DNA of 64,000 nt from Gammaproteobacteria bacterium (GTDB taxonomy: Bacteria; Pseudomonadota; Gammaproteobacteria; SZUA-152). Under the pieces are notes generated by a model that did no database searches, was not told where the DNA came from, and saw nothing but the letters and a program-made list of their open reading frames with translations. The DNA lies in NCBI GenBank assembly GCA_021647505.1, contig JAKIUN010000010.1:1-64000 (forward strand). Reading direction: 5' to 3'. Position numbers and translations under genes: made by a program. Shown here piece after piece: positions 42,961 to 64,000 of the stretch; within the stretch, counting starts at the first letter, position 1; every line of letters begins with the position of its first letter.

Positions 42961-43805
42961 CAAACCATTCCCTTGTGCGCCACAGTACTAACATAGGGCA
43001 TACCAAAATAGGTGACGAACGCCAGCACGAAGATACTGATAATCATCACCCCACTGGCCCACGGCGGTACCTTATAGCTGAGGCGGATATGCAACCCCAC
43101 TGCCAGCAGCAACCAGGTGAAAAAAGCCGAGGTCTCCAGCGCATCCCAGGCCCAGTAACGACCCCAGGCATCCTGCGCCCACACTGCGCCGGTGATCAAC
43201 ATCAGGCTGTCGAACACCAGCGCCAGCATCATCAGGCGCCAAGCCAGCTTGTCGATCACGGCATCGGTGGGCATGGCGCGAAACCACCGCCGCCCCCGTT
43301 CCGTAAGACGCAGGATCATGACCCCACCAAGACCGACACCAGCCAGCAGCAAGGCCAGAAAAACCTTGCCCAGGCCAACGTGGGACCACTTCCAAACATT
43401 GTAATAGGTGGCGGGAAAATAGCTGTCTGCCGGCTCCAGGAGTAACACCCAGCTACCCAGTATCCACATCACCAGCATCACAATCGCGGCGCTGGGACGC
43501 AGCCCTGGCAGGCGCCAGTACAGCAAGGCGTAGATCAGCCCCAGACTCCACAGCTGACTCATCAGCAGCTCAAACAGATTGAGCCACGGCCCGTGACCGA
43601 TGCGCACCCAGCGCACGGCAATGGCAATGGTCAGCAGCAATACGCCGAGAACAATGGCGCCGAGGACAATCCTCTCATGGCGGTGGGACTGCACCGATTC
43701 ACTGCCGACAAGACGCGGCGACAGCCCCCACATAGCGACCAGGGTTGCCACCAGATAGGCCAGCAATCCGGCCCACAACCAGGGTTGTTCAGCGACAATG
43801 TTCAC
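42960..43805 (-). CDS. ccsA: System II cytochrome c synthase subunit CcsA (CcsB/ResC type)
   Basis: The 281-residue membrane protein has about eight helices and the WWD motif WGRYWAWDALETSAFF, with conserved His residues in HVGLGK and VGLHIRLSY. Together with ResB it forms the System II heme lyase. The start is GTG, overlapping the resB stop as GTGA. System II being next to a full System I set is unusual. Confidence 0.92.
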   Translation of the reverse strand: MNIVAEQPWLWAGLLAYLVATLVAMWGLSPRLVGSESVQSHRHERIVLGAIVLGVLLLTIAIAVRWVRIGHGPWLNLFELLMSQLWSLGLIYALLYWRLPGLRPSAAIVMLVMWILGSWVLLLEPADSYFPATYYNVWKWSHVGLGKVFLALLLAGVGLGGVMILRLTERGRRWFRAMPTDAVIDKLAWRLMMLALVFDSLMLITGAVWAQDAWGRYWAWDALETSAFFTWLLLAVGLHIRLSYKVPPWASGVMIISIFVLAFVTYFGMPYVSTVAHKGMV

Positions 43806-44827
43806 ACACTTCCCCTCTTGTTGGCAGTCCCATTGTTGTTGTCCGTCGGACTGTCATCATCCGTCCATGCCGTGAGACTCAATTTTTTCCAGAAAAACTG
43901 CCCCAGACCGAACACACCCGCAACACTGACGAAGAATAGCCACTGTATCGTAGGATCGTAAAATACCCTATATCCCATCCAAGTAGTCAAGTAATCAAAT
44001 CGCAGCCGGCCATGTGGCAGCTGCGTCTCCTCACCCGGCTTCAGCTCCACTCGTTGATCCCCGCTTGTGACCACCAGCACACCACTAGAGTTCCGGCCAT
44101 CCAGCACCCACGCGTCTTCCAGGGTCATGCCGGTATCCAGCTGCAGCCAGAACTTGATGTCTTCTTCCGTGCCCGGCGGTATCCAGTGGTTATCCTGTTT
44201 GTACTCAAACAGCGGATAAGAAGGCATGTGAACGCGCCCGCTGACCCTTTCACCCTCCTCAGGAATCCACGTCAACACCGGTGCAAAACCCTTGTTATGC
44301 GTGGTATAAAAGCGGTAACGCTCCAGTACCAGTGGGCGGTCGTCACCCACATCGATTTCCAGCATGGAACCATCCGGTTGCGGTAAGAACACTTGACTGT
44401 GGGTCAAGCCACGCCGCAGCTTCGGCGCATAATCCACGGTAAAACCTCCCTGGGTAAAGACGACCTTGTCCAGCGCCCCGGCATGCCAGGGGCCCTTACG
44501 CACATCCATCAGCAGTTCCGGACTGAAGGCCTGCTCCTTGCCAATCTCCAGATGAGCATCGAGATGGGTCAGGCGGCCAATACCCGCCAGCACCACCATG
44601 CCCAGCAGGCCGACATGGAATACCAGCAGGCCGGGCTGGCGATTGATGCGCGGGTTGGTGAGTATAGCGGCAGCAAGATTAATGGCCAGTAAGGCCAGCG
44701 GCATTACCAGCACCCAGATGGAAGTCTCCACCGGATTGCCATAACTCAGCGCCGCGCCGATGCCCAGCAGCACCATGCCCAGCAGGGTCAGCTTCAGAGA
44801 GGCCAGAGCCGATAAAACTTGCATCAT
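43802..44827 (-). CDS. resB: ResB/Ccs1-like System II cytochrome c biogenesis protein
   Basis: The 341-residue protein has three N-terminal membrane segments, a large periplasmic domain (about 95-290) and a C-terminal helix (about 298-318), which is the ResB/Ccs1 layout. It is shorter than Bacillus ResB. The family binds apocytochrome and works with CcsA. It heads the minus-strand maturation locus and diverges from the ICMT-like gene; the 100-base gap 44828-44927 must hold both promoters. Confidence 0.87.
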   Translation of the reverse strand: MMQVLSALASLKLTLLGMVLLGIGAALSYGNPVETSIWVLVMPLALLAINLAAAILTNPRINRQPGLLVFHVGLLGMVVLAGIGRLTHLDAHLEIGKEQAFSPELLMDVRKGPWHAGALDKVVFTQGGFTVDYAPKLRRGLTHSQVFLPQPDGSMLEIDVGDDRPLVLERYRFYTTHNKGFAPVLTWIPEEGERVSGRVHMPSYPLFEYKQDNHWIPPGTEEDIKFWLQLDTGMTLEDAWVLDGRNSSGVLVVTSGDQRVELKPGEETQLPHGRLRFDYLTTWMGYRVFYDPTIQWLFFVSVAGVFGLGQFFWKKLSLTAWTDDDSPTDNNNGTANKRGSV

Positions 44828-46190: not shown

Positions 46191-46931
46191 ATGGGCGAAC
46201 AATCCGCACTCAACCCCGCATACTGGTGGTCAATCTGGCTGCTACTCCTGACCCTTGGCGGCTGCAGCAACCTGCCCCTTGGGGAAAAACTGCCTGCACA
46301 GGATCCCGACCTCACCTACCTGGGCCGCGCCCCCGGTCACCCGCAAAACACCCTGTATCGGGTGCAAGGCCTGCTCTTCACGGTCTTTCCCGGCGTCTTC
46401 CAGCCCTCCCCGGACAGCATGGCGCTGCTGCGGCACACGCAGATCCGTGCCGACGAAATGGTGTTGGACATCGGCACCGGCACCGGCATCCAGGCCATCT
46501 TCGCCGCCCGCGTCGCCCACCGCGTGGTAGCCACAGACATCAACCCGGTGGCGGTGGAAAACACCCGGTTCAACGCCTACCGGCTGGGTCTGGCCGACAG
46601 GATCAGCGTCCGCCTCAGTGATTTGTTCTCGGCCATCGGCCCACAGGAACGTTTCGATGTCATCCTGTTCAACATCGAATACCCCAACAGCGACGCGGAT
46701 CTGGTGTTGTGGGATGTGCACGAACGCTTCTTTGCGCAGGTGAGACGCCATCTCAAGCCGGGTGGGCGTATCTATTACCAATTCGGTTTCCGCCGTAACA
46801 TGGCGCGTCTGCAGGATATGCTACGGCGCAACGGCCTGCAGATTGTGGCGCAATTCCAAGCCCCCGCCATATTGCCGGGGGAGCAATACATCATCTGCGT
46901 GATCCAGCCACGAACGCCAGGTCAACAATAG
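46191..46931 (+). CDS. Lipoprotein-like class I SAM-dependent methyltransferase
   Basis: The 246-residue protein has a hydrophobic N-terminus ending in a lipobox (LLTLGGC, about residue 25) and then a Rossmann methyltransferase. Motif I is MVLDIGTGTGIQAIFAAR, the acidic loop VVATDINPVAVENTRFN follows, and ILFNIEYPN stands where N-methylases have NPPY. SAM is cytoplasmic, so a lipidated, exported methyltransferase would lack cofactor. Either the Cys is not lipidated and the segment is an uncleaved anchor, or the start is misread. The 3' end overlaps the converging propeller gene by 41 bases. Confidence 0.8.
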   Translation: MGEQSALNPAYWWSIWLLLLTLGGCSNLPLGEKLPAQDPDLTYLGRAPGHPQNTLYRVQGLLFTVFPGVFQPSPDSMALLRHTQIRADEMVLDIGTGTGIQAIFAARVAHRVVATDINPVAVENTRFNAYRLGLADRISVRLSDLFSAIGPQERFDVILFNIEYPNSDADLVLWDVHERFFAQVRRHLKPGGRIYYQFGFRRNMARLQDMLRRNGLQIVAQFQAPAILPGEQYIICVIQPRTPGQQ

Positions 46932-49104
46932 CCTGTTTCAGCAACTCATCGCTGAGCAATTTCAGCCCGCCACTCGTGTCATCAACGGCAAAGCGCAGTA
47001 GCCGCCGGCCATCCTCTGACAGCACCCACAGGATGCCCCCCTTTGGGCTCAGCCGCAGTGATCCGGGCCGCACCGGCAGTTTCAACTCACGCACGGCCAG
47101 TGCCAGTGCCCCCAAACCCTTTTCGATGCCATGGATCGAGACCTGTGAGGCATCACGGTTGGCAACGAACAACCAGTGCCCCGACGGATGCACCGTCAGA
47201 TCCACCGGCCGCTTCGCCGTCTTGAAGGGCGAGCCGGGCAAGGCCGAGAGGGCGCCGACCTGGTGCTGGATGCGATAGGCCGAAATATCATTGGATGCGG
47301 CGTTGGCAACGTAGGCGTAGTGCCCGTTCGGCTCTACGGCCAACGCCACGGGTTCCTTGCCGGCAGCGAAGGGAGAGCCATACTTGTGACTGTCGATAAG
47401 CAGCGGCATGGTGCTGGTAAGGTAGCGGAATACAGAAATATCATTCGACCCGGCATTCACCACAAAGGCATAGCGCGCCGCAGGGTCGAGGGTCACCGCC
47501 ACGGGCCGCCGACCGGTTCGTGCCGATGCACGCTGTACCCGGCGGGGGATGCCGCTGTCCGGATCGAGGTGCCAGGCCATCAAAGTATCATCGTCACTGT
47601 TGACGGCATACAGATACCAGCCGTTGACATCGATGGCCATCGCGGCAGGCCGCCGACCCGTAGCCACCGAACCACCCGCCACTGCTCTGAGACCCGCAGG
47701 ATCAATGCGCAGGGTCGTGAGGGTATTACTGTCGGTATTGGCAGCATAGACGAAACGCCCGTCGGGGCGTACCGCCACGGCCTGCGCCGCCCCGCCGGTT
47801 TTAGCGGTCGCCATGACGGAAAGGCTTTTCTTGGCCTGCCCCCTCTTGACCAAATCCTCTTTAGCCAGAACAAAAACCGCCAGTCCGGCCGCACCCCGAG
47901 AAACAACAAGCCACGGTGGCAATGACGCCACTGGCCTGCCCTCGGCCAAGGCCAGATCCCAGGGGCCGGAACGGGTCTTTATCGTCTCCCGCAGCTGCAG
48001 CGCGCCCGTCGTGGTATCCACGTCCAGCAGGGCCACATCATTGGATTCATAGTTCGGTACATAAACTTGGCTGCCCTCGACGTTAAAGATCAGCGCTACA
48101 GGCCCTGTACCTCCACTGGTGAAGGGCGAGCCCGACACGAGGCTGAGCCGGCCCGTGCGCGGGTCGAGGGCATGCACCGCAATCTCACTGGTGGACCACT
48201 GGGTGACGTACACAAAACGCCCGGAGGGGTGTACGGTGACGCTATAGGGGTTAAAGCCGGTAAAGAAGGGGCTACCCGCCACCGCCGTCAAGCGGCCGTT
48301 GTCCGGATCAATGCGAAACACGCTAACACTGGCTGCCGCCCAGTTGACCACAAAGGCAAAGCGCCCGGCTGGATCCAGGGCCATGTGATAGGGGATACCG
48401 CCGGCCCCGGCGGGCACGTCTTCCATCTTTAACAACGCGCGGTAATCGATCGCGTCTATCTCTGCCACGGAAAAAGGCGAGTCCGGCATTTCACGCAAGA
48501 CACCGCTTTGCGGGTCGACGGCATAGGCGGAGACGCTGTTGGAATAGCCATTGACGGCATAGATAAAGCGCCCCGAAGGATGCATCACCACCGAGCGTGT
48601 GCGCTTCTGCGCCTTGAAGGGCGAACCGGGCAGAGGCGTGACCGTGCCGCTCTCGCCATCAAAGACATAGGCGCCGACACCACCGAAGCGGGCCGCCACG
48701 TAGACAAAGCGCCCCGAAGGATGAAAGACGATATCGAAAGGCGAACGGGCTCTGCTCTCAAAGGGTGAGCCGGGAACAGGGGTCAAATCACCGCTGGTAG
48801 AATCCAGCCGGAATACGTTGATGAGGCCTTCGGCCTTCGAAATCGCCAGAACAAACCGGCCCGATGGATCCACCACTACGGCCGGCGGTGATTTACGCAG
48901 GGGAATGTGCCCCAGATGGCGCAGCTGGCCATCGCTCTCAACCTGATAGCGGGAGAGACTGAAGTCCAGACCGTTCACAGTAAATGCAAAACGTGCCGGC
49001 CCGGCATGGGCCACAGCCGCCAACAACACGCAGGCAAGGATGGGCAACAGTCGCAAAATGACTCCGGAGTAAGACATCTGGGGCAATATAGAGGAATACC
49101 GCAT
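46891..49104 (-). CDS. Double beta-propeller, lactonase-like exported protein (copy 1)
   Basis: The 737-residue protein has a signal peptide (ending AAVAHA, about residue 34) and about fourteen blades of the 7-bladed lactonase/YncE type. The recurring unit is HPSGRFVYVxN followed by SVxAYxxDPxTGxL and GSPFxxG. The two sets of blades are joined near residue 390-420. Catalysis is unproven; many such propellers only bind partners. The start at 49104 follows the undecaheme stop by 19 bases, so both are on one transcript. It is a paralogue of the protein at 52282. Confidence 0.85.
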   Translation of the reverse strand: MRYSSILPQMSYSGVILRLLPILACVLLAAVAHAGPARFAFTVNGLDFSLSRYQVESDGQLRHLGHIPLRKSPPAVVVDPSGRFVLAISKAEGLINVFRLDSTSGDLTPVPGSPFESRARSPFDIVFHPSGRFVYVAARFGGVGAYVFDGESGTVTPLPGSPFKAQKRTRSVVMHPSGRFIYAVNGYSNSVSAYAVDPQSGVLREMPDSPFSVAEIDAIDYRALLKMEDVPAGAGGIPYHMALDPAGRFAFVVNWAAASVSVFRIDPDNGRLTAVAGSPFFTGFNPYSVTVHPSGRFVYVTQWSTSEIAVHALDPRTGRLSLVSGSPFTSGGTGPVALIFNVEGSQVYVPNYESNDVALLDVDTTTGALQLRETIKTRSGPWDLALAEGRPVASLPPWLVVSRGAAGLAVFVLAKEDLVKRGQAKKSLSVMATAKTGGAAQAVAVRPDGRFVYAANTDSNTLTTLRIDPAGLRAVAGGSVATGRRPAAMAIDVNGWYLYAVNSDDDTLMAWHLDPDSGIPRRVQRASARTGRRPVAVTLDPAARYAFVVNAGSNDISVFRYLTSTMPLLIDSHKYGSPFAAGKEPVALAVEPNGHYAYVANAASNDISAYRIQHQVGALSALPGSPFKTAKRPVDLTVHPSGHWLFVANRDASQVSIHGIEKGLGALALAVRELKLPVRPGSLRLSPKGGILWVLSEDGRRLLRFAVDDTSGGLKLLSDELLKQAIVDLAFVAGSRR

Positions 49105-49123
49105 CACAGGCCAAGCACCGCCC

Positions 49124-51742
49124 CTAAGGCACGGTGGTGCAGGCCTCGGAACCGCCCACCATCCAGCTTACACCGGTACGACCATTGCCGGGCGAGCCGC
49201 GGGAACCACAGTTACCCGCCGACCAATTACCGCTGGTGGCAAAGCTGTAGACCTTGAGCACCGCGCGGTTGTAGTAGGGACCGTTGACGTAGCCCGCACG
49301 GGTGCTGTTACGCACCTGATTACCGGTGGAAGCAAACCCGCCTTCCGGCCCCACATCATTGAGGTTGACCAGGAAATTCTTGTTTTTCCAGCCATGGGGC
49401 ACGGCCACATGACACAGGTTGCAGCGGAAGTTGTTTACCTGAGCAACATGGAAACGGTGCATGTTGATGCGTGTGGTTCCCGGTGAACACATCATGCCGC
49501 AGGAGGAGCCGCCGAAGCCACTGGCCTGGGTGATGCCGGCGGTGGAGGCATATTGCTCATACTCATGGCACTTGAAGCACAGATGATCGTTGGATGCCGT
49601 GTCTTCGCCAGTGCCCAGGCGGTTGGTAAAGTCATTGGCCGCCGAGCCCGGCACGTTGCCGCTCCAGTCACCCTTGAGCAGAAAATAATTACTCGACCCA
49701 TGCGGCCCCCACGCCGCGCCGTTTTCCTGTCCCGGATCCGGGTCCACGGTTCCTGCCGCCGTATTCGAGCCATGGCAGTCGGTACAATACATAGTCTGGG
49801 TGCCGACCGCATTGTTGAAAGGGGTGATCCAGTTGTCGGCATTGGCTTGACGAACACCCGTTGTGCGGCCCGTGTCATTGGTGACCGGATGCCAACTACG
49901 GTGGTTGTTGGTATTAAAGAGCGGGTCGGCGCCACCATCGCTTCCCAGCGACATGCCCTCCCCCTTGTGCGAATCCGGCGAATTATATTCCTGCGCCTGA
50001 TCGGTGTACTGCCCCATGTTGTTCACTCCTGGAGGAGTCGTGACGCCACTGGCACCCAGAGTAGGCGGTGTATCGTAGGCGTAGGTGGAGTGGCATTTGA
50101 GGCACACCTGGTATTCGCGTGTCACGTAGGGCTCAGTAACATTGGTGGTGCCGGAGGTACCGGGATCACCGCGCTTGACGATGAAGTCCGTTGGCCCAAG
50201 ATCGAAATTATTACTGGCATAGACTGGCTCCACGCCCCAGGTGCCACGCAACACACCGGAGGCGATATTGGTGTGTGGCGCTGCATTGTCGTGGTCATGT
50301 GTACCGGCGGCGTCCATGACGCCGTTGAGGTTGCTGTCGAGAAAGCTCCGCCGGCGCACGACGCGGTGCGGATTGTGGCAATCGGTGCATTCCACGTGGC
50401 GATTGTTCAGACTGCCCCCCAGGCTGACCTTGCCCAGGGCGGCCTGGGACTCGATGAAGTCCTTGCCACGCTGGCTCACGGCCCGGGAGTCGAGGCCCAG
50501 GGTACCGATATCGTGCTGCTCCGAGCCTGCCACCTGCTCGCTGTTGCGAATTGGCATGTGGAAGGCCATGTTGAAGTCGGTCTTGATATCCGGCACCTCG
50601 GTATTTATACCCTGCGAAGTGAGGGTGCCTCCATCGCTGGAATGGCAGGCGAAACAGGTCTCTTCGATGGCCGCCTGACCACCCAGCCGCTCACCGCTGG
50701 GGCCGATGGGGCCGTCCGTGCCTTCACGCAGCAGGCGGCGCGAGCCAGACACGCTATGGGTATCATGGCAGGCCAGACAGGCGGTCTGCCATACGGCAGT
50801 GGGGCCGTCGGGCGAGGTGCTGTTAGGAAAGTCGCGCAGATTGGCGGCAGCATCGGTATAGACTTCGTCGGCGACCTCAGCGGTGGCATGCGCCGAGCCC
50901 ACCCAGCCAGCTTTGTCGTGACAGGCCAGACAGATGATATCGCTGGTCTCGCTAAAGATGCGGGTAGTCGGTGACACCTTCTGGAATCGGTTCAGGCGCA
51001 GAAACTTGATGCTCTTAGTCGGATCAGCGGCGTCGCGGATGTGGGGGTCATGGCAGCTGTTGCACTGCACCTCAGCATTATTGTTGTCCAATGGCACCAA
51101 CGGGTTCACACCGGGCTGGCGCACGCCGATGTGTGCCGAGGTGTTGGGGTCGCGCAGTTCACCGTCTGCAGTTGCCAGGGCGGTATCAAAACGGAATGAG
51201 ATGGGGTGATCATTGCGCAAATCGGTGCCCAAATGACGAGTGAAGCCGGTGTTTTCGCCCAGCGCCTTGGGCATGCTGCCATCGGCCTCGACGCCGGTCA
51301 TGGCGATCTGTCCGCTGGCCCAGGCACCGTTCAGCACCCGCACAGCACCGATGGCGATGGTGCCGTCGTGGCAGGACAGGCAGAGCTTGGAGACACCATT
51401 GGGCTGATCCAGCGCGACGCCCTCGGCGGTGGCGTCCAGCGAGCCGGAATTGTAGGTGTCGTAGGTAGCTGTAGAGAGACTGCGGTTCCACAGTGGCCCC
51501 TGCTGCAGGTTCGCGCCGTGCGGAGTATGGCAGAAGACACAGAGTTCGTCCTCTGTGCTTGCCTGCACATCACGGTTGGCCTGGCTCGGCAAACGGGAGA
51601 GATTATGCTTGGTATTGCGGATATCTGAGACCCGGTTGCTAGGCAAACCACCGGCGGCAACACTCTCAGGCCAAAGGCCGATGGCGACGCTGGCGATGAC
51701 AATAAGCACCGCAAGCAAGCCCTGGTTCCGCTGCTGCTGCAT
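49124..51742 (-). CDS. Undecaheme c-type cytochrome (copy 1)
   Basis: The 872-residue protein has a signal peptide (about 1-30) and eleven CXXCH sites, in order CVFCH, CLSCH, CNSCH, CLACH, CLACH, CFACH, CTDCH, CLKCH, CTDCH, CFKCH, CNLCH. The N-terminal module (KHNLS, CVFCHTPHGA, PLWNR, CLSCHDGTIA, GTDLRNDHPI, CNSCHDPH) is shared with the pentaheme proteins and resembles OmcS/OmcE. There is no lipobox, so it is secreted or periplasmic. A gaggag site two bases before the ATG and a small hairpin (51750-51765) precede it. It is probably an extracellular electron carrier; filament formation is only a suggestion. Confidence 0.9.
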   Translation of the reverse strand: MQQQRNQGLLAVLIVIASVAIGLWPESVAAGGLPSNRVSDIRNTKHNLSRLPSQANRDVQASTEDELCVFCHTPHGANLQQGPLWNRSLSTATYDTYNSGSLDATAEGVALDQPNGVSKLCLSCHDGTIAIGAVRVLNGAWASGQIAMTGVEADGSMPKALGENTGFTRHLGTDLRNDHPISFRFDTALATADGELRDPNTSAHIGVRQPGVNPLVPLDNNNAEVQCNSCHDPHIRDAADPTKSIKFLRLNRFQKVSPTTRIFSETSDIICLACHDKAGWVGSAHATAEVADEVYTDAAANLRDFPNSTSPDGPTAVWQTACLACHDTHSVSGSRRLLREGTDGPIGPSGERLGGQAAIEETCFACHSSDGGTLTSQGINTEVPDIKTDFNMAFHMPIRNSEQVAGSEQHDIGTLGLDSRAVSQRGKDFIESQAALGKVSLGGSLNNRHVECTDCHNPHRVVRRRSFLDSNLNGVMDAAGTHDHDNAAPHTNIASGVLRGTWGVEPVYASNNFDLGPTDFIVKRGDPGTSGTTNVTEPYVTREYQVCLKCHSTYAYDTPPTLGASGVTTPPGVNNMGQYTDQAQEYNSPDSHKGEGMSLGSDGGADPLFNTNNHRSWHPVTNDTGRTTGVRQANADNWITPFNNAVGTQTMYCTDCHGSNTAAGTVDPDPGQENGAAWGPHGSSNYFLLKGDWSGNVPGSAANDFTNRLGTGEDTASNDHLCFKCHEYEQYASTAGITQASGFGGSSCGMMCSPGTTRINMHRFHVAQVNNFRCNLCHVAVPHGWKNKNFLVNLNDVGPEGGFASTGNQVRNSTRAGYVNGPYYNRAVLKVYSFATSGNWSAGNCGSRGSPGNGRTGVSWMVGGSEACTTVP

Positions 51743-51830
51743 AACTCCTCAGATCGAAAGATCTGCTACCCGACATGGACAGCATCAAAGATAGAACGGA
51801 TATCGGCATATTTGTCCGAAACCTGAGGGG

Positions 51831-51876
51831 TGGATAACTTCGTGTTACTGCGGAGTCGTGGCTCACCGCTCTCTGC
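51831..51876. repeat. Partial duplicate of the 3' end of the propeller gene at 52282
   Basis: These 46 bases match 52320-52365 in the same orientation with four differences. The matching part lies in the last codons of the propeller gene (NTKLS region). The copies bracket the transposase fragment at a distance of 489 bases. Confidence 0.85.
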
Positions 51877-52181
51877 TAAAACGAGCGCTCAAGTTTGATG
51901 AGTTTGCCAAAAATCGCTTACCCGAACGGGTACATCAGGCGCTCATTGAGCAACACCTTGAGGGACAGATAGTGGGGCATATCTTTCAAGATTCCACAGT
52001 AATAAGCGCTCGGGAAAGACCAGAAAAGAAAGCCGTTGCAAGGGACAAGAAACCCAAGAAGCGAGGTCGCCCGAAAAAAGGAGAAGGGCACCCCAAAGAG
52101 CGCCAAGCCGCAGCCCAATCCCTTCCAGTAAAAACTGCCCTTAAATTTGATAGGCATGAATGCCGTAGTGAAGGAGGCTGA
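51858..52181 (+). pseudogene. Fragment of an IS4/IS5-type DDE transposase
   Basis: From about residue 9 the frame reads ALKFDEFAKNRLPERVHQAL, then EGQIVGHIFQDSTVISARER, then a Lys/Arg-rich stretch KKRGRPKKGEGHPKE. This is the region around the first catalytic Asp (QDSTVISARE) of a common DDE transposase family; I am unsure of the exact IS group. The conserved CDVGTK region and the rest are missing, so it is inactive. It lies between the two undecaheme/propeller modules. The remaining bases of the gap 51743-52281 show only the duplicated segment. Confidence 0.7.
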
Positions 52182-52281
52182 TGAGGTAAGGTCAGTGCTT
52201 GCTTGGATGGCGACGATAACCAGCGTATTGGTGCTGCTATCAAGGCTGTCGTCATTAGAGGCAACCAGACTCATTGATCAT

Positions 52282-54477
52282 TCAAGGGCTGGAAACAGGC
52301 GCCAGGTCGACAATGGGAATGGATAACTTTGTGTTACTGCGGAGCTGTGGCTCGCCGCTCTCTGCATCGAGAGAAAAACGCAGCAGGCGCTCGCCATCGG
52401 CAGAAAGCACATAGGCCTCTTCACCGCTTGCCGACAGCCACAGGCGCTTTGGCATCATCGGCAGTTTGAGCGGCTTGCCCACCGGCGCGATGGCGCCCAG
52501 CGCCGTCTCTATGTGGTAGAGGGTCAGGTCGGCGGAATCACGATTGATGGCATACAGAAAGCGTCCACCGGGGTGTGTCGCCAGCGCCAGTGGATGCCGT
52601 CCCGCCTTGAACGGCGAACCCGGCAGCGCCGAAAGCGCCCCGGTCTGGTGGTGAATGCGATAGGCGGAAATATCGTTGGATCCGGCATTGGCTACATAGG
52701 CATAGCGGCCGGTGGGGTCTACCGCCAGGGCAACGGGCGCCTTTCCGGCGGCATACGGCGAGCCATGCCGCACACTCTCAAAGATCAGCGGAGTCACGTT
52801 GTTGCGGTAGCGGTAAACAGAAATATTGTCAGAACCGTTATTCACCACATAGGCGTAGCGTGACGCCGGATCCAGCGTAATCGCCACGGGCCGCTGGCCG
52901 GTACTGACGGGTGAGCCACGCACCGGCTTGGGCAGTCCGCTATCGGGATCAAGGTAGTAGATGGACAGGCTGTTATCGCCGGCATTGGTCACGTACAGAT
53001 ACCAGCCATTGAGATCGACGGCAATGTCGCTGGGCGATGCACCGACGGCAACCACGCCATCGGCCAGCGGCTGCAGCTTTTCACTTGCCGATCCAAACCG
53101 AAAGACCATCACGGTGCCCTTGTCACGGTCGGCAACATAGGCATATTCCCCGCCCGGTTTGACCGCCACGGCGATCCCGCTGGCAACGGTTGCCGCCGTG
53201 GCCTGATGCAGCCGGCCATTGACGGCAATCTGCAGGCGGCCCAACCTATTCTCACCCAACGAAATGAACAGCTGGGCCTTCGCAGGCGCTGGAGCGTCAC
53301 CTTCCGCCAGGGTGAAGGCCCAGGGAGCAGAGCGTGTCTTCACCACGTCAAGGATTTCCAAGGCTCCCGTGTCCAGATCCACGTCCATCTGCACCACATC
53401 GCTGGTGAGCATATTGATCACATAGGCGTGGCGGCCATCGGCATTAAAGGTAATGGCGGCGGGCATCTCCCCGCCGCTGGAAAAGGGCGAGCCCGGCAGC
53501 GGCGTCAGCCGGCCCGTTTCCGCATCCAGGGAGAGGGCTTCCAGCAGGTGATCCCGGGGCCTTGCCACGTATACAAAACGGCCAGAGGGGTGCACGGTCA
53601 CACTGTAGGGATTAAAGCCCGCGAAAAAAGGACTGCCCTCGACCTCGGTCAAGTGACCATCCTCGGCATTGAGGCGAAAGACACTGATATTGGCGGAGGC
53701 CGCATTGACCACAAAGGCGAAGCGCCCCTGCGGATCCAGGGTCATGTGATAGGGCAAACCACCGGCGCTATCCGGCACGTCCTGCATGCGTTGGGCCAGA
53801 TAGTCGATCTGCCCCATCTCACCGACGGTGACTGGTGAGCCTGGCATCTCCGTCAATGCCCCGGTTTTCTGATCCAGGCGAAAGATCGAGATGCTGTTCG
53901 AATAGGCGTTCATGGCGTAGAGGAAACGGCTGGAAGGGTGTAACACCACACTACGGGGATGACTCTGTGCCGGATAGGATGAATCAGGCAGAGGGGCGAC
54001 CGCACCGGTCTCGCCATTAAAGGTGTAGGCTCCCACGCCGGCGTAGCGATGCGCCATATAGAGGAAGCGCCCCGAGGGGTGAAAAATGATACTGAAGGGC
54101 GCCCTGCCCTTGACGTCAAATGGCGAGCCGGGCACCTTGTTGAGTTTGCCGTTGGCAGGATCCAGACGGAAGACATAGACACGGTCGATCGACTGGGAAG
54201 TGGCAAGGACAAAGCGTCCCGAGGGATCCAGCACGACCTCAGGGGTGGACTTGCCGAGCGGCATGTAGTCAAGAAACCGCAGCTGGCCGGTCTCGGTATC
54301 GACACTGTAGCGAGCCAGACTGGCGTCGAGGTTATTGGCGCTGAAAGCAAACCGCTGGGGGCCCGCCTGTGCTGAAGACACCCCCCCGGCCACCAGCATC
54401 AAAATGACAACAGCGAGCAGGCTGCAAGGTATCCACCACCTGCTTTGTGGCGAATAAATATGGGCCTCCAACGTCAT
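52282..54477 (-). CDS. Double beta-propeller, lactonase-like exported protein (copy 2)
   Basis: The 731-residue paralogue of the protein at 46891 has the same layout: signal peptide (ending SSAQA), then two propellers with repeated HPSGRFxY and GSPFxxG units (for example FYPYS-like FNPYSVTVHPSGRFVYV). It closes with a variable tail. It follows its undecaheme partner by 36 bases. The last 46-base stretch of its coding region is repeated at 51831. The function is unknown; conserved pairing with an undecaheme gene points to a shared complex. Confidence 0.85.
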   Translation of the reverse strand: MTLEAHIYSPQSRWWIPCSLLAVVILMLVAGGVSSAQAGPQRFAFSANNLDASLARYSVDTETGQLRFLDYMPLGKSTPEVVLDPSGRFVLATSQSIDRVYVFRLDPANGKLNKVPGSPFDVKGRAPFSIIFHPSGRFLYMAHRYAGVGAYTFNGETGAVAPLPDSSYPAQSHPRSVVLHPSSRFLYAMNAYSNSISIFRLDQKTGALTEMPGSPVTVGEMGQIDYLAQRMQDVPDSAGGLPYHMTLDPQGRFAFVVNAASANISVFRLNAEDGHLTEVEGSPFFAGFNPYSVTVHPSGRFVYVARPRDHLLEALSLDAETGRLTPLPGSPFSSGGEMPAAITFNADGRHAYVINMLTSDVVQMDVDLDTGALEILDVVKTRSAPWAFTLAEGDAPAPAKAQLFISLGENRLGRLQIAVNGRLHQATAATVASGIAVAVKPGGEYAYVADRDKGTVMVFRFGSASEKLQPLADGVVAVGASPSDIAVDLNGWYLYVTNAGDNSLSIYYLDPDSGLPKPVRGSPVSTGQRPVAITLDPASRYAYVVNNGSDNISVYRYRNNVTPLIFESVRHGSPYAAGKAPVALAVDPTGRYAYVANAGSNDISAYRIHHQTGALSALPGSPFKAGRHPLALATHPGGRFLYAINRDSADLTLYHIETALGAIAPVGKPLKLPMMPKRLWLSASGEEAYVLSADGERLLRFSLDAESGEPQLRSNTKLSIPIVDLAPVSSP

Positions 54478-54513
54478 GTGAATGATTCAGGCTCCGGTCT
54501 GAGGGAGCGATGG

Positions 54514-57192: not shown

Positions 57193-57244
57193 GCCATCCC
57201 TCGGAACCGCTTCCCCCCGTCCGCAGGCTTGCGCTGGGAGGATC

Positions 57245-58309
57245 TTAGAGATCTTTTTTATTGCCTGCCAGATACTGCAGTACCACAATCCGCCCGTTAA
57301 ACATATCAGCGACATAAATCCGATCATGGCTATCGGTCCAAACCCCCGCAGGCAGATAAAATTGCCCGATCCCCGACCCCGTGCCACCGATAGGCAGCAA
57401 AAACTGACCGTTGGAGTTGTATACTAGCAAGTAATCATGGAAAGACTCAATAACATAGATATTCTCATCCGAGTCCGTGGCAACCCCCTTTGGCCTGACT
57501 AAATTACCGACATAAAGTCCTCGTTCCCCCAGGGAACGCAGGAAATGTCCCTCCGAATCAAGTACCTGCACGCGTGCATTGAAGGTGTCGGTGACGTACA
57601 GCTGCCCATCACGAAAGGTCAGGTGCGTTGGGGCATTGAAGGTTGCTTTGCCGGTTCCCTGACGACCAAAGATGTCGAGCAGGCGACCATCATCGGCAAA
57701 CACCTTGATGTTGTGTTCGGTCGTGTCGGCAACGTAGATGTTACCGCTCGAGGTGTCAATAGCCAGTCCAGTGGGTCGAGCTAGATCCCCCAGGCCAATC
57801 ACCGCCAGTGGTTTTCCCTGCGCGCTCAGCCGGAATACCCTGGCCAGTTCCGAGTCGGCGATGAGAACGTCACCATTTACAGCAACAGCGATCCCGACCG
57901 GTGAGGCAAAATTCGTCGTCTTGCTGGCCTGATCCCAAACCGATAGCGTCCCCGCAGCCTGATCGAAGACAAAAATAGCCAGCCTAGAGGCATCCGTTAC
58001 CAGAATGCGGCCCGCGCCATCAACAACCCCAGACTGAGGTCGTTGTAAAACATTTCGAAAGCCGGCCTTGCTACCCAAGCCAACAATGGCACGGAAAAAA
58101 TCACGCACTCGATTCGCCGCGCCACCCTTTTCCAGGGCTTCAAAGTTCTCTTCCCCGGTCAGCTCACCAACAAAGCGGTATCGGGGCGGTTCCGGAGCCG
58201 ATGGCCAAACATGCGCCAGCTCGCCCCCGGAGAAACGCATCACCTGCCGGGTGTCGGCACAACCACTGATAAGCAGAGCAAGCAATAGAAAGAGAGACAA
58301 TCGATGCAT
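57245..58309 (-). CDS. NHL-repeat beta-propeller lipoprotein
   Basis: The 354-residue lipoprotein (MHRLSLFLLLALLISGC) has its lipidated Cys at residue 17. A short domain with WPSAPEPPRYRFVGEL, also seen as YPPAPEEPRFYFERTI in the NHL protein at 26323, leads to about six NHL blades (SGNIYVADTTEHNIKVF, GQLYVTDTFNARVQVLD, DRIYVADMFNGRIVVL). The shared leader marks these two as one family. It lies directly before the undecaheme gene (52 bases) and seven bases after the next NHL gene. Confidence 0.87.
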   Translation of the reverse strand: MHRLSLFLLLALLISGCADTRQVMRFSGGELAHVWPSAPEPPRYRFVGELTGEENFEALEKGGAANRVRDFFRAIVGLGSKAGFRNVLQRPQSGVVDGAGRILVTDASRLAIFVFDQAAGTLSVWDQASKTTNFASPVGIAVAVNGDVLIADSELARVFRLSAQGKPLAVIGLGDLARPTGLAIDTSSGNIYVADTTEHNIKVFADDGRLLDIFGRQGTGKATFNAPTHLTFRDGQLYVTDTFNARVQVLDSEGHFLRSLGERGLYVGNLVRPKGVATDSDENIYVIESFHDYLLVYNSNGQFLLPIGGTGSGIGQFYLPAGVWTDSHDRIYVADMFNGRIVVLQYLAGNKKDL

Positions 58310-58316
58310 ACACGTA

Positions 58317-59423
58317 TTACCTTCCGCTAGTCGAGGGTATTGCCGCATTTGGATTAATTCGCAGTACCTGAACCCGCCGATTAAGGCTATCCGCAACGTA
58401 GAGGCGATCACCATTCACCCACAGCCCGGACGCCGTTCGGAAACGCCCTGGCGACGAGCCGGCCCCCCCGAATGTCATCAGCAGATTACCATCCTGGAAT
58501 ATCTGCAGAGTATCGTCAGACTGATCGCTGACATAAACCCGCTGATCGCGATCAACGGCTGCGGCAATCGGGTATATCAACACATCTTCACCAAAGGCGT
58601 AACGGAAAGTGCCATCCCAGGTTAGCACCTGAACTGGAGGCATCTCCAGACGGTCGAAGATATAGAGGCCATCCGAGCCGACGGCCAGCGTGGTAATGGC
58701 GCGAAAGCGCCCCGAACCGGTACCACGCCGCCCCAGCAATCTCGTTGCCTTGCCAAATGAATTAAAGACGACGACATGGCTGAATGAACCATCCGCCACA
58801 AAGACATTGCCCGTCAACTCATCAACAGTCACGTCCATCGGCCGAGCCAGGTTTGCCAGATCCTGAAAGCGCGTCAGCAGGCTGCCATCCTCGGCAAAAT
58901 GCAGCACCTGTTTGCCCAGCGTATCCACAACATAAAAGGAATGGTCTTTGGCCACGTAAATACTGCCGGGGTCGCCGGTAAAATGCTCGGCGACTTCCCT
59001 GATGGGACGAAACAGTTTGGCCGTCAGGTCATATTGAAAGACTATTTTCAGAGTCGCATCGACGATATAGAGGATATTGTCGACCCCGCCAACGGCAACC
59101 GGCTGCCGCAATATCACCTCTTCGACAGCACCCACCGCCAGGCGTCGGAACTGCCCGGTGGCCCCGCGCACATCCTGCTGGCCACGCGCAATGACCGACT
59201 CGACAACCAATAGGCTGGTGCCTGACAGAAGTGGGTTGCCGGCCGTATTCGCCGGAGAGACTGTCGGCTGGCTGGCATCAAAGGAACCACCTTCCGTTGC
59301 GACCCTTTCAAGCTCAGCAATACTACAACCGACAAGCAGCACAAACACTGCATTCAATAACAAAGTACGGGTGAGCCGCGAGATCAACGCAACCCGATAT
59401 TTTCCCGGGCGACGCTGTGACAT
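58317..59423 (-). CDS. NHL-like beta-propeller lipoprotein
   Basis: The 368-residue protein has a lipobox LLVGC near residue 32 and propeller blades such as PGSIYVAKDHSFYVVDTLG and GNVFVADGSFSHVVVF. The ATG at 59423 has a ggag site at good distance and overlaps the triheme gene by 40 bases. An in-frame TTG at 59387 would give a more compact signal and a TTGA overlap, so the start is not certain. It differs from the NHL protein at 57245 in its leader. Both are probably held on the outer membrane. Confidence 0.83.
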   Translation of the reverse strand: MSQRRPGKYRVALISRLTRTLLLNAVFVLLVGCSIAELERVATEGGSFDASQPTVSPANTAGNPLLSGTSLLVVESVIARGQQDVRGATGQFRRLAVGAVEEVILRQPVAVGGVDNILYIVDATLKIVFQYDLTAKLFRPIREVAEHFTGDPGSIYVAKDHSFYVVDTLGKQVLHFAEDGSLLTRFQDLANLARPMDVTVDELTGNVFVADGSFSHVVVFNSFGKATRLLGRRGTGSGRFRAITTLAVGSDGLYIFDRLEMPPVQVLTWDGTFRYAFGEDVLIYPIAAAVDRDQRVYVSDQSDDTLQIFQDGNLLMTFGGAGSSPGRFRTASGLWVNGDRLYVADSLNRRVQVLRINPNAAIPSTSGR

Positions 59424-59977
59424 CGATTACACTCCATAGGTGGGAAGGCGACCTTTCCATGGCAAACACCGCAATATTCGCCTTCCATAATTGCAGCCAT
59501 GGTCACGAAATTTCCGCCCCGCTGAGGTAAAAAAATGGCCGGATGACAATTCTTGCAGGTCAGCCACTGGGTATGCGGTAAATGAGGGAAACGCACATAG
59601 GGCATTGACGCTGTATTTTTGAAAATCACGTCAAAATCCACCGAGTGCATCTTTTCACTGCCGGTCACCCCTGTCCGAGGGGCAATCAAACCGCGGTCAA
59701 GCGTATCAACCCAGTTAATGATGCCTAGCGCATCCCGTGGAAAATCCTTCATGGCATCAGCGGGTGGCTGCAGGGTATTGACGGCGTCATTATCGGGATC
59801 ATGAATACCATCTTCTGATAGTGGAACCACATCACCATGCAACTGATAATGACCACCACCTTTATCTGCAAACAGCGGGCCAGGAAGCACAACCATCAAC
59901 AGGAGTACGGCAACCCTCGCGGAAAAATAGTTCACCGAAAACGTCTTGCCAGAGAAAAGCCAAGTCATATCTATCAT
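59384..59977 (-). CDS. Triheme cytochrome of the c7-type triheme family
   Basis: The 197-residue protein has a signal segment (about 15-37, ending GPLFA) and three CXXCH sites (CKNCH, CGVCH, CNRCH) in the last 65 residues. The motif FPHLPHTQWLTCKNCHPAIF, with its His-rich lead, supplies bis-His ligands in the manner of c7/c3-type cytochromes. EDGIHDPDND in the N-terminal part is shared with the protein at 61888. It is probably a periplasmic electron carrier feeding the outer-membrane route. It overlaps the NHL lipoprotein gene. Confidence 0.88.
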   Translation of the reverse strand: MIDMTWLFSGKTFSVNYFSARVAVLLLMVVLPGPLFADKGGGHYQLHGDVVPLSEDGIHDPDNDAVNTLQPPADAMKDFPRDALGIINWVDTLDRGLIAPRTGVTGSEKMHSVDFDVIFKNTASMPYVRFPHLPHTQWLTCKNCHPAIFLPQRGGNFVTMAAIMEGEYCGVCHGKVAFPPMECNRCHSVARENIGLR

Positions 59978-60155
59978 TTAATTGCCTCGTTCGAGCCGAC
60001 ATCCCCCGCCAGCTCTCCTGTAGGCGACCTCAAAAATTCCGTAACGTCTTTTAGATTCTGTGCCATAGGCATTCGCAACACATTCAACGGTTTAATTCAG
60101 CCCTGACATTTCATGAATATGAAGTATCCGGGTCAGGTTAAAGGCGTCAGCGACG

Positions 60156-61730
60156 TCATTGTGACACACCCACCATGCGCAGAGCACGGCGAACGGTCTT
60201 CGTCGCCTGCTGCAGCATGCCCACAGCCACACCATAGTCACCTTCTGCGGCCTTTTCCTTTGCCTCGTCACGACGCTTACGCCCTTTGTCAAGGAAGCTG
60301 TCCATCAACTTCAAGGCACCGGCCGCAGGCCTTTTCATTTCAACGGCCACCGGTATTAATTCTTCGTATCCGCCAAACCGTTTCAACTCGTATTCGTATT
60401 CATCGGCCGGCGTATCGAATTTCAATTCATAAACCAGGGTTTTGGAATCCAGCATCTTGTGCAGGCCCTGGGTAACAATCGCCTGAGCCTGCTCAAGCTT
60501 GGCATTGGCCTTTGCATAGTCACCTTTCGAGGCCAGAACCTGCGCCTCTTTCTTCAGGCTGGCAACCTGAGCCTTGTCATAACCAGAGTCCTTGGGAGCA
60601 TCCCCAGCCTTGGCCATGCGAACATAATTACTGTCATAAGACGCCTCGAAATCCTCAATTTCATGCAAGAGTTCATCGTGACGTTGTGAAAGTTCCGCGA
60701 CCGCATCTTCACTGGGCACCATTTTCGAGGCCGCACCGACCCCCTTTACCGCTTGGTCTGCCAGGGCCAGGGCCTCGGGCAACGCCCCGGCAAGCAGCTT
60801 TTCCCGGCTGGAGACCAAGTCTTTCCTGGCAGAAGCAAGCAAGCGCTTGGCCTCCCCATTATTACTGGCAAGCACTCTTTTGGCACCTTTACTGTTGATC
60901 ATCATGTCCGCAAACACCAGCTTTTGCTCGACCTTTACTTTAGACGCCTGCGCCTTTTTGGGAGCCACTATTGCCGTCACCGCTTCGATCTCTACAGTCT
61001 CGCCAGGCTCTACAACGTACAGAGTCGCCCCCATATAGGGGTGATTTCGGCAGGCATAATAAACCTTGTCCGGGGTCTTTTTACCGGGAACAAACGTCAA
61101 GCTGCCTTTAGAGGTGTAAGCCCCTTGAACCCCTTCAACAACCGGGGCACTGCCCCAACCTATCTCCTTGCTGGAAAGATAGACATCATGCTGCGAATCC
61201 ATATCGATCACAAACGTATATGTCTTGCCGCGTTCGAGAACAATCGACTTCCCCGGCACACCATCAAGACTAAACCCCATCGCATGCCCTTTGCCGTAGG
61301 CAGGATGATTCAAATCCTTCTTGACCAAAGTAACGACATGCTGCTCAGACCCTGCGATTACCGACTTGGTAGTTGTGCGAGAAACGGGCGATGCAGCTTC
61401 CCTCGTCCTTTCATCAACGACACCCTCGTCACCGATAACCACAGCCGCTGCAGCAGGCATGGCCTCGATAGACAGTGTTGGGTCACGAACCTCTTCCACC
61501 GGCATTGTCTCAACAGACCCGACAATATTCGATTCTTCGCCCTGCGCAGTAGAAAGGGGTGTATTTTCTGCGGTCTCGTCGGCAATAGTCGCCCGTATTT
61601 CCGCCGCTGCAGTCGCTTCGCCCTGTATCGTATCCTCCGATGTCTGCGTCTCATTGGCGGCGCAACCCCAGAGACCGAGCAAGGAAAGCAATAGCAGGGC
61701 CGAAATGGTTTTAATGGATGAATTCAACAT
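60156..61730 (-). CDS. Lipoprotein with a cupredoxin-like domain and helical C-terminus
   Basis: The 524-residue lipoprotein has its lipobox Cys at residue 23 (LLGLWGC) and a long Ala/Thr/Glu-rich spacer. A cupredoxin-like domain follows at about 128-242: His181 (DSQHDVYLSS), then Cys227, His230 and Met233 in VYYACRNHPYMGATL, a complete set of candidate type 1 copper ligands. Residues 260-524 are helical and Ala/Lys-rich, with TPR-like features (KGDYAKANAKLEQAQAIV). The combination is not one I recognise. Lying between triheme cytochrome genes, it may be an electron carrier or a scaffold. A 10-bp hairpin (61813-61837) precedes it. Confidence 0.72.
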   Translation of the reverse strand: MLNSSIKTISALLLLSLLGLWGCAANETQTSEDTIQGEATAAAEIRATIADETAENTPLSTAQGEESNIVGSVETMPVEEVRDPTLSIEAMPAAAAVVIGDEGVVDERTREAASPVSRTTTKSVIAGSEQHVVTLVKKDLNHPAYGKGHAMGFSLDGVPGKSIVLERGKTYTFVIDMDSQHDVYLSSKEIGWGSAPVVEGVQGAYTSKGSLTFVPGKKTPDKVYYACRNHPYMGATLYVVEPGETVEIEAVTAIVAPKKAQASKVKVEQKLVFADMMINSKGAKRVLASNNGEAKRLLASARKDLVSSREKLLAGALPEALALADQAVKGVGAASKMVPSEDAVAELSQRHDELLHEIEDFEASYDSNYVRMAKAGDAPKDSGYDKAQVASLKKEAQVLASKGDYAKANAKLEQAQAIVTQGLHKMLDSKTLVYELKFDTPADEYEYELKRFGGYEELIPVAVEMKRPAAGALKLMDSFLDKGRKRRDEAKEKAAEGDYGVAVGMLQQATKTVRRALRMVGVSQ

Positions 61731-61812
61731 ATTTACGATACCCGCCAGCCTCTTAAACCGAATAAACGTCGAAGCGAAAATGAATAAGCAACACCATGCA
61801 CATTAAGAGAAA

Positions 61813-61837
61813 CGGCGCGAACAAAAAGTTCGCGCCG
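61813..61837 (-). other. Intergenic perfect hairpin between triheme and cupredoxin genes
   Basis: The arms cggcgcgaac and gttcgcgccg pair perfectly around aaaaa. No T run follows. It lies inside the presumed operon and could be an mRNA processing or stability element that sets relative expression. Confidence 0.7.
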
Positions 61838-61887
61838 CCAACACTAACACTTGGTCAAAATGTCCCGTCAACACCACAAGGGATCGG

Positions 61888-62550
61888 TTAACGCCACGGT
61901 TCCTTTAGGCTGGTCTCACTTTGCGGCGGCTTCCAGTCGGCCGGCTTGGGTTTGGAATGACACTTGGTGCATGACTGGGTGGTCACCGGGAATGCCACCT
62001 TGCCGTGACACACACCGCACTGCTGGCCCAGCAGGATACCGGACATATTCATCACATTTGCCTTACGTTGCGGTATGAATATCTTCGGATGACAGTTCGA
62101 GCAATGCAGCCATTGGGTATGTGGTTTGTGCGGAAACACCACGTCTGGCACCGTCGATTTCACCTCGCGGACAATATCCAGATCCATGATCAAAGGCTCA
62201 ATAGTGGCATCAAAACGATCATAACGCGGCTGTAAAAGGTCAGTATCCAGCGCCTTCACCCAATCCACATAGTTGCCGAATGGCGTTGTCGGGAGGCCGT
62301 CATAGGCGATCTTCGGTGGCTGCAGAACGTGTGTATTGTCATTGTCCGGATCGTGAATGCCGTCCTCTGCGGGAGGCAGATTCCTGGCCTTGGACTTTTC
62401 CAGCAAGCGGTTAAAGGTGTTTGCCGTACTCACATGGCCTTTTGCGGCCTTCACTTCTTTTAGCGGCGGCTGAGCGGCCTCTACCTGAATAGCAACGACC
62501 GGCAACACGCTCAAAGCCACAACCCCCAAGAAGAATTGTTTAATTTTCAT
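61888..62550 (-). CDS. Triheme cytochrome of the c7-type triheme family
   Basis: The 220-residue protein has a signal peptide (about 1-25, ending QVEA) and three CXXCH sites (CSNCH, CGVCH, CTKCH) near its C-terminus. FPHKPHTQWLHCSNCHPKIF and EDGIHDPDND make it a close paralogue of the protein at 59384. A basic, Pro-rich tail follows the last heme. It should act in the periplasm. An aaggg ribosome-binding site precedes the ATG. Confidence 0.89.
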   Translation of the reverse strand: MKIKQFFLGVVALSVLPVVAIQVEAAQPPLKEVKAAKGHVSTANTFNRLLEKSKARNLPPAEDGIHDPDNDNTHVLQPPKIAYDGLPTTPFGNYVDWVKALDTDLLQPRYDRFDATIEPLIMDLDIVREVKSTVPDVVFPHKPHTQWLHCSNCHPKIFIPQRKANVMNMSGILLGQQCGVCHGKVAFPVTTQSCTKCHSKPKPADWKPPQSETSLKEPWR

Positions 62551-62573
62551 TGTAATAACCCTTCGTTGTTAGC

Positions 62574-62981
62574 TTACTTCTTGTTATTGCCTAACTTTTT
62601 ATAAGTCGGCGCAACCAACCGTTGAACAGTACTGCCATGAATCTGGGTCGGCGTGCCGGCAATACCCGAGTGGCACATACCGCAATTCTCAACGGACCAG
62701 GAAATTTCACCATTGTGACAGGCGCCACAGAACTGACCATCGATAATCTTGGCCATGGTGATTTTGTTACCGCCCGCCTTGAACTTGAAGCCAAGATCCG
62801 CATGGCAAACCTTGCAACGGAAACGAATCCGGTGATACCAGTGCGGGAACACCACAGGTCGCATACCTGCCGCATCCGAGTAGTTATTCATTACCACATC
62901 AGCGTATTCCGCATGGGCCGCTTGCGGCAGCACCATAACAGCCAACATACTCAGCAAGCCTATAAGTGCCGACTTGTACAT
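62574..62981 (-). CDS. Small triheme c7-type cytochrome
   Basis: The 135-residue protein has a signal peptide (ending AAHA, about residue 24) and three CXXCH sites (CKVCH, CGACH, CGMCH). The lead FPHWYHRIRFRCKVCHADLG gives the extra His ligands. The ATG at 62981 (MYKSALIGLL) has a strong ggagg site directly upstream, so in-frame ATGs farther upstream were rejected. It lies 81 bases after the beta-barrel gene and 23 bases before the next triheme gene. Small size and position next to a barrel suggest the heme wire inside or below an outer-membrane pore. Confidence 0.9.
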   Translation of the reverse strand: MYKSALIGLLSMLAVMVLPQAAHAEYADVVMNNYSDAAGMRPVVFPHWYHRIRFRCKVCHADLGFKFKAGGNKITMAKIIDGQFCGACHNGEISWSVENCGMCHSGIAGTPTQIHGSTVQRLVAPTYKKLGNNKK

Positions 62982-63062
62982 AAAGCCTCCCTCCATCGTC
63001 ATTAAATCAAAAGCCAAAACTGAATAATCACTGTCAGTACACCTCGGGCATACTACCCCACA

Positions 63063-64000
63063 TCAAAAGCTGCGGGTAGCCTGAAAGTAAAGTGATTTCA
63101 CCGGAACACCTTCGCCACTCTGCGTCATACGAAAGCTCACTGCCATACTCAGAAGCCCCAAACGGTATTGAAAGCGGTTATCCCAGTCCAGTCTCTGTGA
63201 AGGAACATCATTACCAATCTCCTTGCTAGCCCCAAATCGGGAGTGAAAACGCAGATTGTATATGCCAAAAGGGCGCTGATTCCGGTAATTAAGGCCTAAA
63301 TTGGCATATCGTCGAGACCCCGTCTCGGTGTTACCCGGTTCCACCTGAGATTCCTGGCGGTTGATATCAAAGGAAATATGGCCCGCGATAGTGCTCAATC
63401 TGCTGAGAGTCAGATCTTGCGTCAGATTGACTGCCGCCCGCTGAAACACCGCCTCCCTCTCGCCCATCGAACGGGAATCCGACATCTGAAAACCTCCATA
63501 AGTCGAGCCCCGCCGCCCGCGATAGCTACTGCTCATATTGAAGCTGTTGTTGACTGTTTTAGAAACCCCCTCTACGGCCGAACTCTTACTTACCGACAGC
63601 CCCTGCGAAAACCCCGTACTCAGCGAGGCGGCACGACCCAGGGCCCATTGTCCAGAGACGTTGTGGGCAAGACCGCCACCGAGCGAGCGGGTACTGTTGG
63701 TCTCCTTTCTTCCCGGCGATTCTACTCGGGACAGGCTATTGCCCGCCGAACCCGAGGTCGTCCACACCCAATCAAAACCCGCCCCCAAGGGATAGCGATG
63801 TGAAGAGTAGCTTATCCCCAGAGACTGGCTTGATGTCAACGACCGGGAATTTTCACTTTCCGCCGTTCCGACCGTTAGCCCGGCCCTCATATTCGCCCGC
63901 CGGGTTATCCGGTAGTTCACACCAATGTTGGTATCGAGACTCCTTCGATCCGAACCACCACTGGATTCCGATTTGGAGGCACGAACTCCGCCCGACACAC
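63063..64000 (-). CDS. Outer-membrane beta-barrel-like protein, C-terminal part (cut by window end)
   Basis: At least 311 residues are visible; the N-terminus lies beyond the window. The sequence shows alternating polar/hydrophobic strands about ten residues long, many Ser/Gly/Arg turns, and ends in ...YFQATRSF with the C-terminal Phe typical of outer-membrane barrels. No CXXCH or catalytic motif is seen. It is not clearly MtrB by sequence. Being first in a run of triheme and undecaheme cytochrome genes, it is the best candidate for the pore of a porin-cytochrome conduit. Confidence 0.65.
   Translation of the reverse strand, partial: VSGGVRASKSESSGGSDRRSLDTNIGVNYRITRRANMRAGLTVGTAESENSRSLTSSQSLGISYSSHRYPLGAGFDWVWTTSGSAGNSLSRVESPGRKETNSTRSLGGGLAHNVSGQWALGRAASLSTGFSQGLSVSKSSAVEGVSKTVNNSFNMSSSYRGRRGSTYGGFQMSDSRSMGEREAVFQRAAVNLTQDLTLSRLSTIAGHISFDINRQESQVEPGNTETGSRRYANLGLNYRNQRPFGIYNLRFHSRFGASKEIGNDVPSQRLDWDNRFQYRLGLLSMAVSFRMTQSGEGVPVKSLYFQATRSF

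Follow-up and report, generated by a model that had tools for sequence, protein, structure and literature searches.

A uet cluster with OmcE-type cytochromes and a predicted 28-strand, MtrB-like outer-membrane barrel in a gammaproteobacterium

Introduction

The way in which cathode- and iron-oxidising bacteria bring electrons in through the outer membrane is so far largely unproven. The closest described system to the locus reported here is the undecaheme electron transfer (uet) cluster, named uetABCDEFGHIJ (PMC12575090), which encodes the undecaheme cytochrome UetJ, the tetraheme UetA, the trihemes UetD, UetE and UetG, the peptidylprolyl isomerase UetB, the NHL proteins UetH and UetI, and the porin UetC. 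Its carriers include cathode-oxidising Tenderiales and Gallionella (PMC10734462), and UetJ has been reported in Leptothrix (PMC13386937). Here we analyse a minus-strand locus of this kind in a stretch of 64,000 nucleotides (the window) from a Gammaproteobacteria bacterium (assembly GCA_021647505.1). The window spans positions 1-64000 of contig C13 (JAKIUN010000010.1), which extends to 77975, in a genome of 3.74 Mb (G000).

Other described systems share parts of this design. OmcE of Geobacter forms filaments, and in these a subunit supplies a histidine ligand to a heme of the subunit next to it (PMC9473688). The Geobacter osc cluster has been proposed to serve OmcS nanowires through OscH in folding, OscE/F/G in secretion and OscD in morphology (Shen et al. 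2025, as summarised in PMC13194489). The MtrCAB/MtoAB and Geobacter OmaB-OmbB-OmcB conduits, like Uet, encode an outer-membrane barrel together with periplasmic and surface multiheme cytochromes.

Results

Judged by gene content and order, the locus is the uet cluster: A to J match the published genes in the published order. Read from the upstream end, the minus-strand order is N, A (four hemes), B, C, D (three), E (three), F, G (three), H, I, J1 (11), K1, an insert, J2 (11) and K2, as follows (positions beyond 64000 are those of the contig).

67740-68831, minus strand: NHL lipoprotein N, upstream of the window end
About 66471-67390, minus strand: UetA, tetraheme cytochrome, upstream of the window end
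65351-66361, minus strand: UetB, PpiC-type prolyl isomerase of 336 amino acids (aa) with a weak SurA_N match, upstream of the window end
63063-64874 (L002:3064-4875), minus strand: UetC, outer-membrane beta-barrel of 603 aa, from a structure model and PDB fold match; the 3' part, 63063-64000, lies in the window
62574-63017, minus strand: UetD, triheme c7-type cytochrome (TIGR04257, E=7.5e-18; GSU1996 3ov0, E=4e-42)
61888-62550, minus strand: UetE, triheme c7-type cytochrome with an N-terminal extension (TIGR04257, E=1.1e-17)
60156-61730, minus strand: UetF, cupredoxin-like lipoprotein with a conserved His/Cys/His/Met set and a helical C-terminal part
59384-59977, minus strand: UetG, triheme c7-type cytochrome with an N-terminal extension (TIGR04257, E=2e-17)
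58317-59423, minus strand: UetH, NHL/6-bladed-propeller lipoprotein (Pfam NHL and DUF5128; lipobox Cys33 in 96%)
57245-58414, minus strand: UetI, NHL lipoprotein (NHL, E=3.5e-28; lipobox Cys52 in 100% of 65)
54514-57387, minus strand: open reading frame (ORF) of UetJ1, undecaheme cytochrome with Gly/Met-rich loops and 11 CxxCH motifs; true start probably near 57.2 kb
52282-54477, minus strand: K1, lactonase-type (7-bladed type) propeller of 731 aa (6-phosphogluconolactonase-like and YVTN-repeat matches)
51831-52281, no strand assigned: insert region between K1 and J2, with a 46-bp repeat of the K1 3' end and a 107-aa ORF at 51858-52181 (plus strand)
49124-51742, minus strand: UetJ2, undecaheme cytochrome with 11 CxxCH motifs and an OmcE match
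46891-49107, minus strand: K2, lactonase-type propeller of 738 aa (PF10282 Lactonase, E=1.2e-69)

An initial annotation, made from the window alone, had described a 17-kb operon with a barrel, three trihemes, a cupredoxin-like lipoprotein, two NHL lipoproteins and two undecaheme/propeller modules. All of these genes were found on the minus strand where it had placed them. It had also proposed extending the sequence past 64000, which completed the barrel and revealed B, A and N (about 65.4-68.8 kb of the contig). The co-oriented run therefore stands, with its start further upstream and a total of about 22 kb. The layout, described then as matching neither MtrCAB nor Geobacter OmaB/OmbB/OmcB, is uetABCDEFGHIJ gene for gene, and a new, unclassified type of conduit was rejected accordingly.

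Searching a species collection with UetJ yielded 247 relatives; the best 80 were from Pseudomonadota, and 77 loci were kept. By profile assignment, the order A to J recurs in dozens of loci of gamma-, beta- and alphaproteobacteria and Magnetococcales, apart from minor variants such as a UetF split in two or an additional D-type triheme. Each adjacent gene pair was seen 55-78 times, some genomes being counted twice. The gene set is beyond chance, since dozens of genomes keep its order. It is present in Gallionellaceae, in a Candidatus (Ca.) Tenderia metagenome-assembled genome (MAG) whose contig carries F-J only (L073), and in a biocathode MAG in which B was not detected (L081). Uet-like clusters are also present in culturable hosts, among them Ramlibacter albus and Ideonella sp. 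UetJ is 48% identical both to the Ca. Tenderia MAG and to Gallionella MAGs, with the same order over the genes present. The barrel gene occurs in 28 of the 274 sampled genomes of the class, and a search of plasmids with UetA gave no match. Compared with the cluster of Tenderiales, Gallionella and Leptothrix, the ten genes, their order and their heme counts are alike; the window locus adds N upstream, the propeller K after J, a tandem J-K duplication, Gly/Met loops in J1 and the K1-J2 insert.

The two cytochromes at the ends of the published cluster, UetA and UetJ, both lead to OmcE. In profile searches of PDB, UetA matched OmcE (7tfs, E=2.6e-37; 5e-23 with the single sequence) and the 16-chain multiheme cytochrome 9yuq (E=3.4e-36), with a weak match to OmcS (6ef8, E=9e-7). 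The homology with OmcE covers the full length. UetA-type proteins (n=54) have exactly eight conserved histidines, four heme-attaching and four free, the same set as in OmcE, and in every one of the 54 the final CxxCH ends two residues before the C-terminus, as it does in OmcE and 9yuq. UetA differs from OmcE in being longer (a 279-aa mature part), and its filaments, unlike those of OmcE, are predicted ones. UetJ is an OmcE-type module followed by seven further hemes, since residues 37-236 of UetJ2 match OmcE 7tfs (E=3e-23), hemes 1-4 keep the eight-histidine set at 98.9-100% in an alignment of 87 rows, and OmcE was the sole PDB match of the UetJ structure model at E<=10 (E=0.004). The same alignment holds 11 invariant heme-attaching histidines and enough conserved free histidines for the distal ligands. 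On this sequence evidence the OmcE nanowire family includes UetA as well as the part of UetJ that holds its first four hemes. We count this kinship as new, together with the ligand pattern of the trihemes and the family-specific K and J-K duplication described below, although some links may stand in earlier papers and the OmcE kinship may already be noted in Eddie et al. 2022.

The barrel UetC was modelled with AlphaFold2 at a predicted local distance difference test (pLDDT) score of 91.4, and we counted 28 strands. The best PDB fold match of the model is MtrB (6r2q_B, E=3e-9) at a template modelling (TM) score of only 0.42, with many other barrels behind; a sequence search against PDB returned nothing meaningful and no MtrB match. 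In nearly every related locus uetC has the prolyl isomerase gene on one side and the gene of the first triheme on the other. The strand count, the MtrB match and this synteny led us to reject an autotransporter or an unrelated porin, which the initial annotation had named as the outcome that would overturn its reading of a trans-outer-membrane electron route, and they bear that reading out. The model fits a wide outer-membrane pore; a heme-filled conduit is not proved by it. From the MtrCAB/MtoAB and OmaB-OmbB-OmcB systems Uet differs in the 28 strands of its barrel, its trihemes with a predicted His/Met heme, its prolyl isomerase, its OmcE-type secreted cytochrome and the absence of a decaheme MtrA-type partner. 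Neither the cluster nor the genome gave a match above cut-off to an MtrA/MtoA-type (DmsE family) periplasmic decaheme.

UetD, UetE and UetG each score above the TIGR04257 cut-off. Five histidines and one methionine are invariant in each: Met88 in UetD (75 sequences), Met169 in UetE (48 sequences) and Met160 in UetG (66 sequences). In the alignment, the invariant methionine of UetD falls on the TMA/TML methionine of the Geobacter dodecaheme GSU1996 (3OV0), each of whose domains holds one His-Met heme (PMC10138318). Given the five histidines and one methionine and this precedent, one high-potential His/Met heme is predicted in each Uet triheme. The UetD fold resembles GSU1996 by sequence and the one-methionine pattern is common to D, E and G, whereas the Uet trihemes are three separate single-domain proteins and GSU1996 consists of four fused domains. 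In UetF, His181, Cys227, His230 and Met233 are conserved at 93-95% among 43 homologues, a cupredoxin-like set; the match to pseudoazurin is weak (E=0.12).

Downstream of UetI the locus departs from the published cluster. Among the loci compared, K follows J directly only in the window's family, and most family members with complete clusters have the J-K pair in tandem. In the J tree, the J1 and J2 sequences from the window's genus fall into two separate supported clades, each joined by a genome of another genus (G009), although deeper branches are not fully resolved; the duplication therefore predates the genus, and both copies were kept. Three GGM-rich, Gly/Met-rich loops occur in J1, at matching places and with variable length in genus orthologues, and are absent from J2. 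Enzyme-model scores of K1 fall far below the curated cut-offs, and we rejected K as a working 6-phosphogluconolactonase on these grounds. Elsewhere in the genome (contig C44:12511-14970; L043), a third undecaheme gene with 61% identity to UetJ2 occurs on its own, its neighbours being unrelated metabolic genes.

The gaps between genes had been described as short or overlapping except at a transposase scar. The gap between K1 and J2 is indeed widened (539 bp, against 155 bp in sister genomes G003 and G006) by an insert of about 0.4 kb, which holds a 46-bp direct repeat, a 91% near-copy of the K1 3' end. The transposase label is unproven, as the 107-aa ORF matched no Pfam or NCBIfam model, and the insert was rejected as gene-breaking since the K1 end is intact in the alignment. 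Further gaps lie between B and C (476 bp), E and F (157 bp) and F and G (178 bp). The apparent UetI/J1 overlap is an ORF-extension artefact, because the J1 ORF (957 aa) exceeds its genus orthologue in G003 (901 aa). Promoter and terminator scans showed no excess over shuffled sequences, and transcript units could not be read from them. Just downstream of the cluster is a ResC/ResB cytochrome-maturation pair (42960-44827, minus strand); a similar pair, GSU0613-GSU0614, lies near omcE in Geobacter (PMC2700814, PMC7894505). Upstream of N are a porin-like protein and then ordinary genes including rpsI and rplM, assigned by eye.

Discussion

Gene content, synteny, homology and conserved ligands describe a Uet cluster that, in our reading, exports and wires OmcE-type cytochromes via a 28-strand MtrB-like barrel, so that a CO2-fixing bacterium can take up electrons. 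We give this reading a probability of about 0.6. UetB would help the periplasmic folding of secreted UetA and UetJ. UetC and the trihemes would form an outer-membrane passage with a heme relay at its inner side, and UetF and the NHL lipoproteins, anchored in the envelope, would act as carriers or scaffolds. Polymerisation of UetA is most likely, in the manner of OmcE, a histidine of one subunit ligating the heme of the next, and UetJ, with its four-heme module and seven more hemes, would cap or extend the UetA wire and contact the solid electron donor. Electrons would pass from the donor to UetJ and along the UetA wire, cross or bypass the UetC gate, reach trihemes D, E and G and the cupredoxin, and go on to the inner membrane. 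The window's family gained the propeller partner K and a second J-K pair. Export route, polymerisation, electron direction and the roles of F, H, I and K are proposals of the model. Its best functional parallel, by description, is osc as summarised in PMC13194489, where genes for a proposed folding factor, secretion components and a morphology factor accompany that of a secreted nanowire cytochrome.

Is a filament needed at all? UetC might simply sheathe one or more trihemes, with UetJ as a monomeric outer terminal cytochrome and UetA as a small soluble shuttle. The MtrB match, the regular co-encoding of trihemes, barrel and surface cytochrome, and the published description of Uet as a porin-multiheme cytochrome complex (PMC10734462) all suit such a plain conduit. 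We nevertheless consider it rather unlikely, as UetA is an OmcE relative with the OmcE ligand set and C-terminus, a prolyl isomerase almost always lies beside it, and the cluster lacks a large periplasmic MtrA-like cytochrome. The tetraheme and the isomerase found beyond 64000 speak for secreted, perhaps polymerised cytochromes in preference to a plain MtrCAB-like arrangement. In a bolder version Uet would be no fixed MtrCAB-like plug but a system, common across Pseudomonadota, that exports and assembles nanowires: UetC would export UetA, which would polymerise through heme ligation between subunits, and UetJ, as a natural heterotypic part of the wire, would dock on the UetA filament as its tip or base. 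We offer this version tentatively, at less than even odds. Electron flow could also run outward, to metals or electrodes in dissimilatory reduction: the relatives OmcE and GSU1996 carry electrons outward in Geobacter (PMC12307469), and related conduits may be reversible (PMC10734462). Inward flow, probably using the high-potential hemes, is favoured because RuBisCO is present in the genome, no MtrA-type decaheme scored above cut-off and the bacteria named as Uet carriers are cathode or iron oxidisers; the predicted His/Met hemes, too, suit high potentials, which leaves an outward route with a low probability. Least probable of all is that the J-K modules stand outside the electron route, K being lactonase-like enzymes and J2 a redundant duplicate. 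K does match lactonase propellers, most uet clusters lack it and the insert may split J2-K2 from the rest, but J1 and J2 were retained as separate supported clades across several species with all 11 heme motifs intact, K comes immediately after J wherever both were seen, and its enzyme models score far under their cut-offs.

Several points weigh against the reading of Uet as an export and wiring system for electron uptake. The TM-score to MtrB is low, and the UetJ model (pLDDT 66.7, lowest in the N-terminal module) is too weak to stand alone. Eight histidines would also suffice for a self-contained UetA monomer. RuBisCO by itself does not fix the direction of electrons, and the Tenderia undecaheme gene showed no differential expression between cathode potentials (PMC5371394). 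The genome holds a second multiheme-plus-porin cluster (contig C105; L131:2152-14802), with a 975-aa multiheme, a 420-aa porin-like protein, several further multihemes, a polyferredoxin-like membrane protein and an 825-aa NHL-multiheme fusion. In the accessible literature we found no experimental demonstration of Uet filaments, of export through UetC or of electron transfer by Uet.

Uet occurs in hundreds of genomes, and with an OmcE-type cytochrome and a filament ligand set the vague "porin-cytochrome complex" becomes a testable nanowire system. If the uptake reading is true, cytochrome nanowires would also serve autotrophs that take up electrons. Diverging undecahemes have a natural example in the duplicated J-K module, and under the nanowire-export version this duplication would yield two kinds of wire ends.

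Other multiheme loci in the genome

A stand-alone UetA/OmcE-type tetraheme lies among housekeeping genes (contig C82:21673-22698; L047:7673-8698). Two adjoining triheme (TIGR04257) lipoprotein-like cytochromes occur on contig C53 (L044:8279-9612), with no barrel or large cytochrome nearby. Within the window, 25517-28630 (plus strand) encodes two five-heme cytochromes of 268 and 344 aa that resemble OmcE in profile searches and lie on either side of an NHL lipoprotein (26299-27420). Both have 12 histidines and end two residues past the last CxxCH, and the region is a possible second, pentaheme filament locus.

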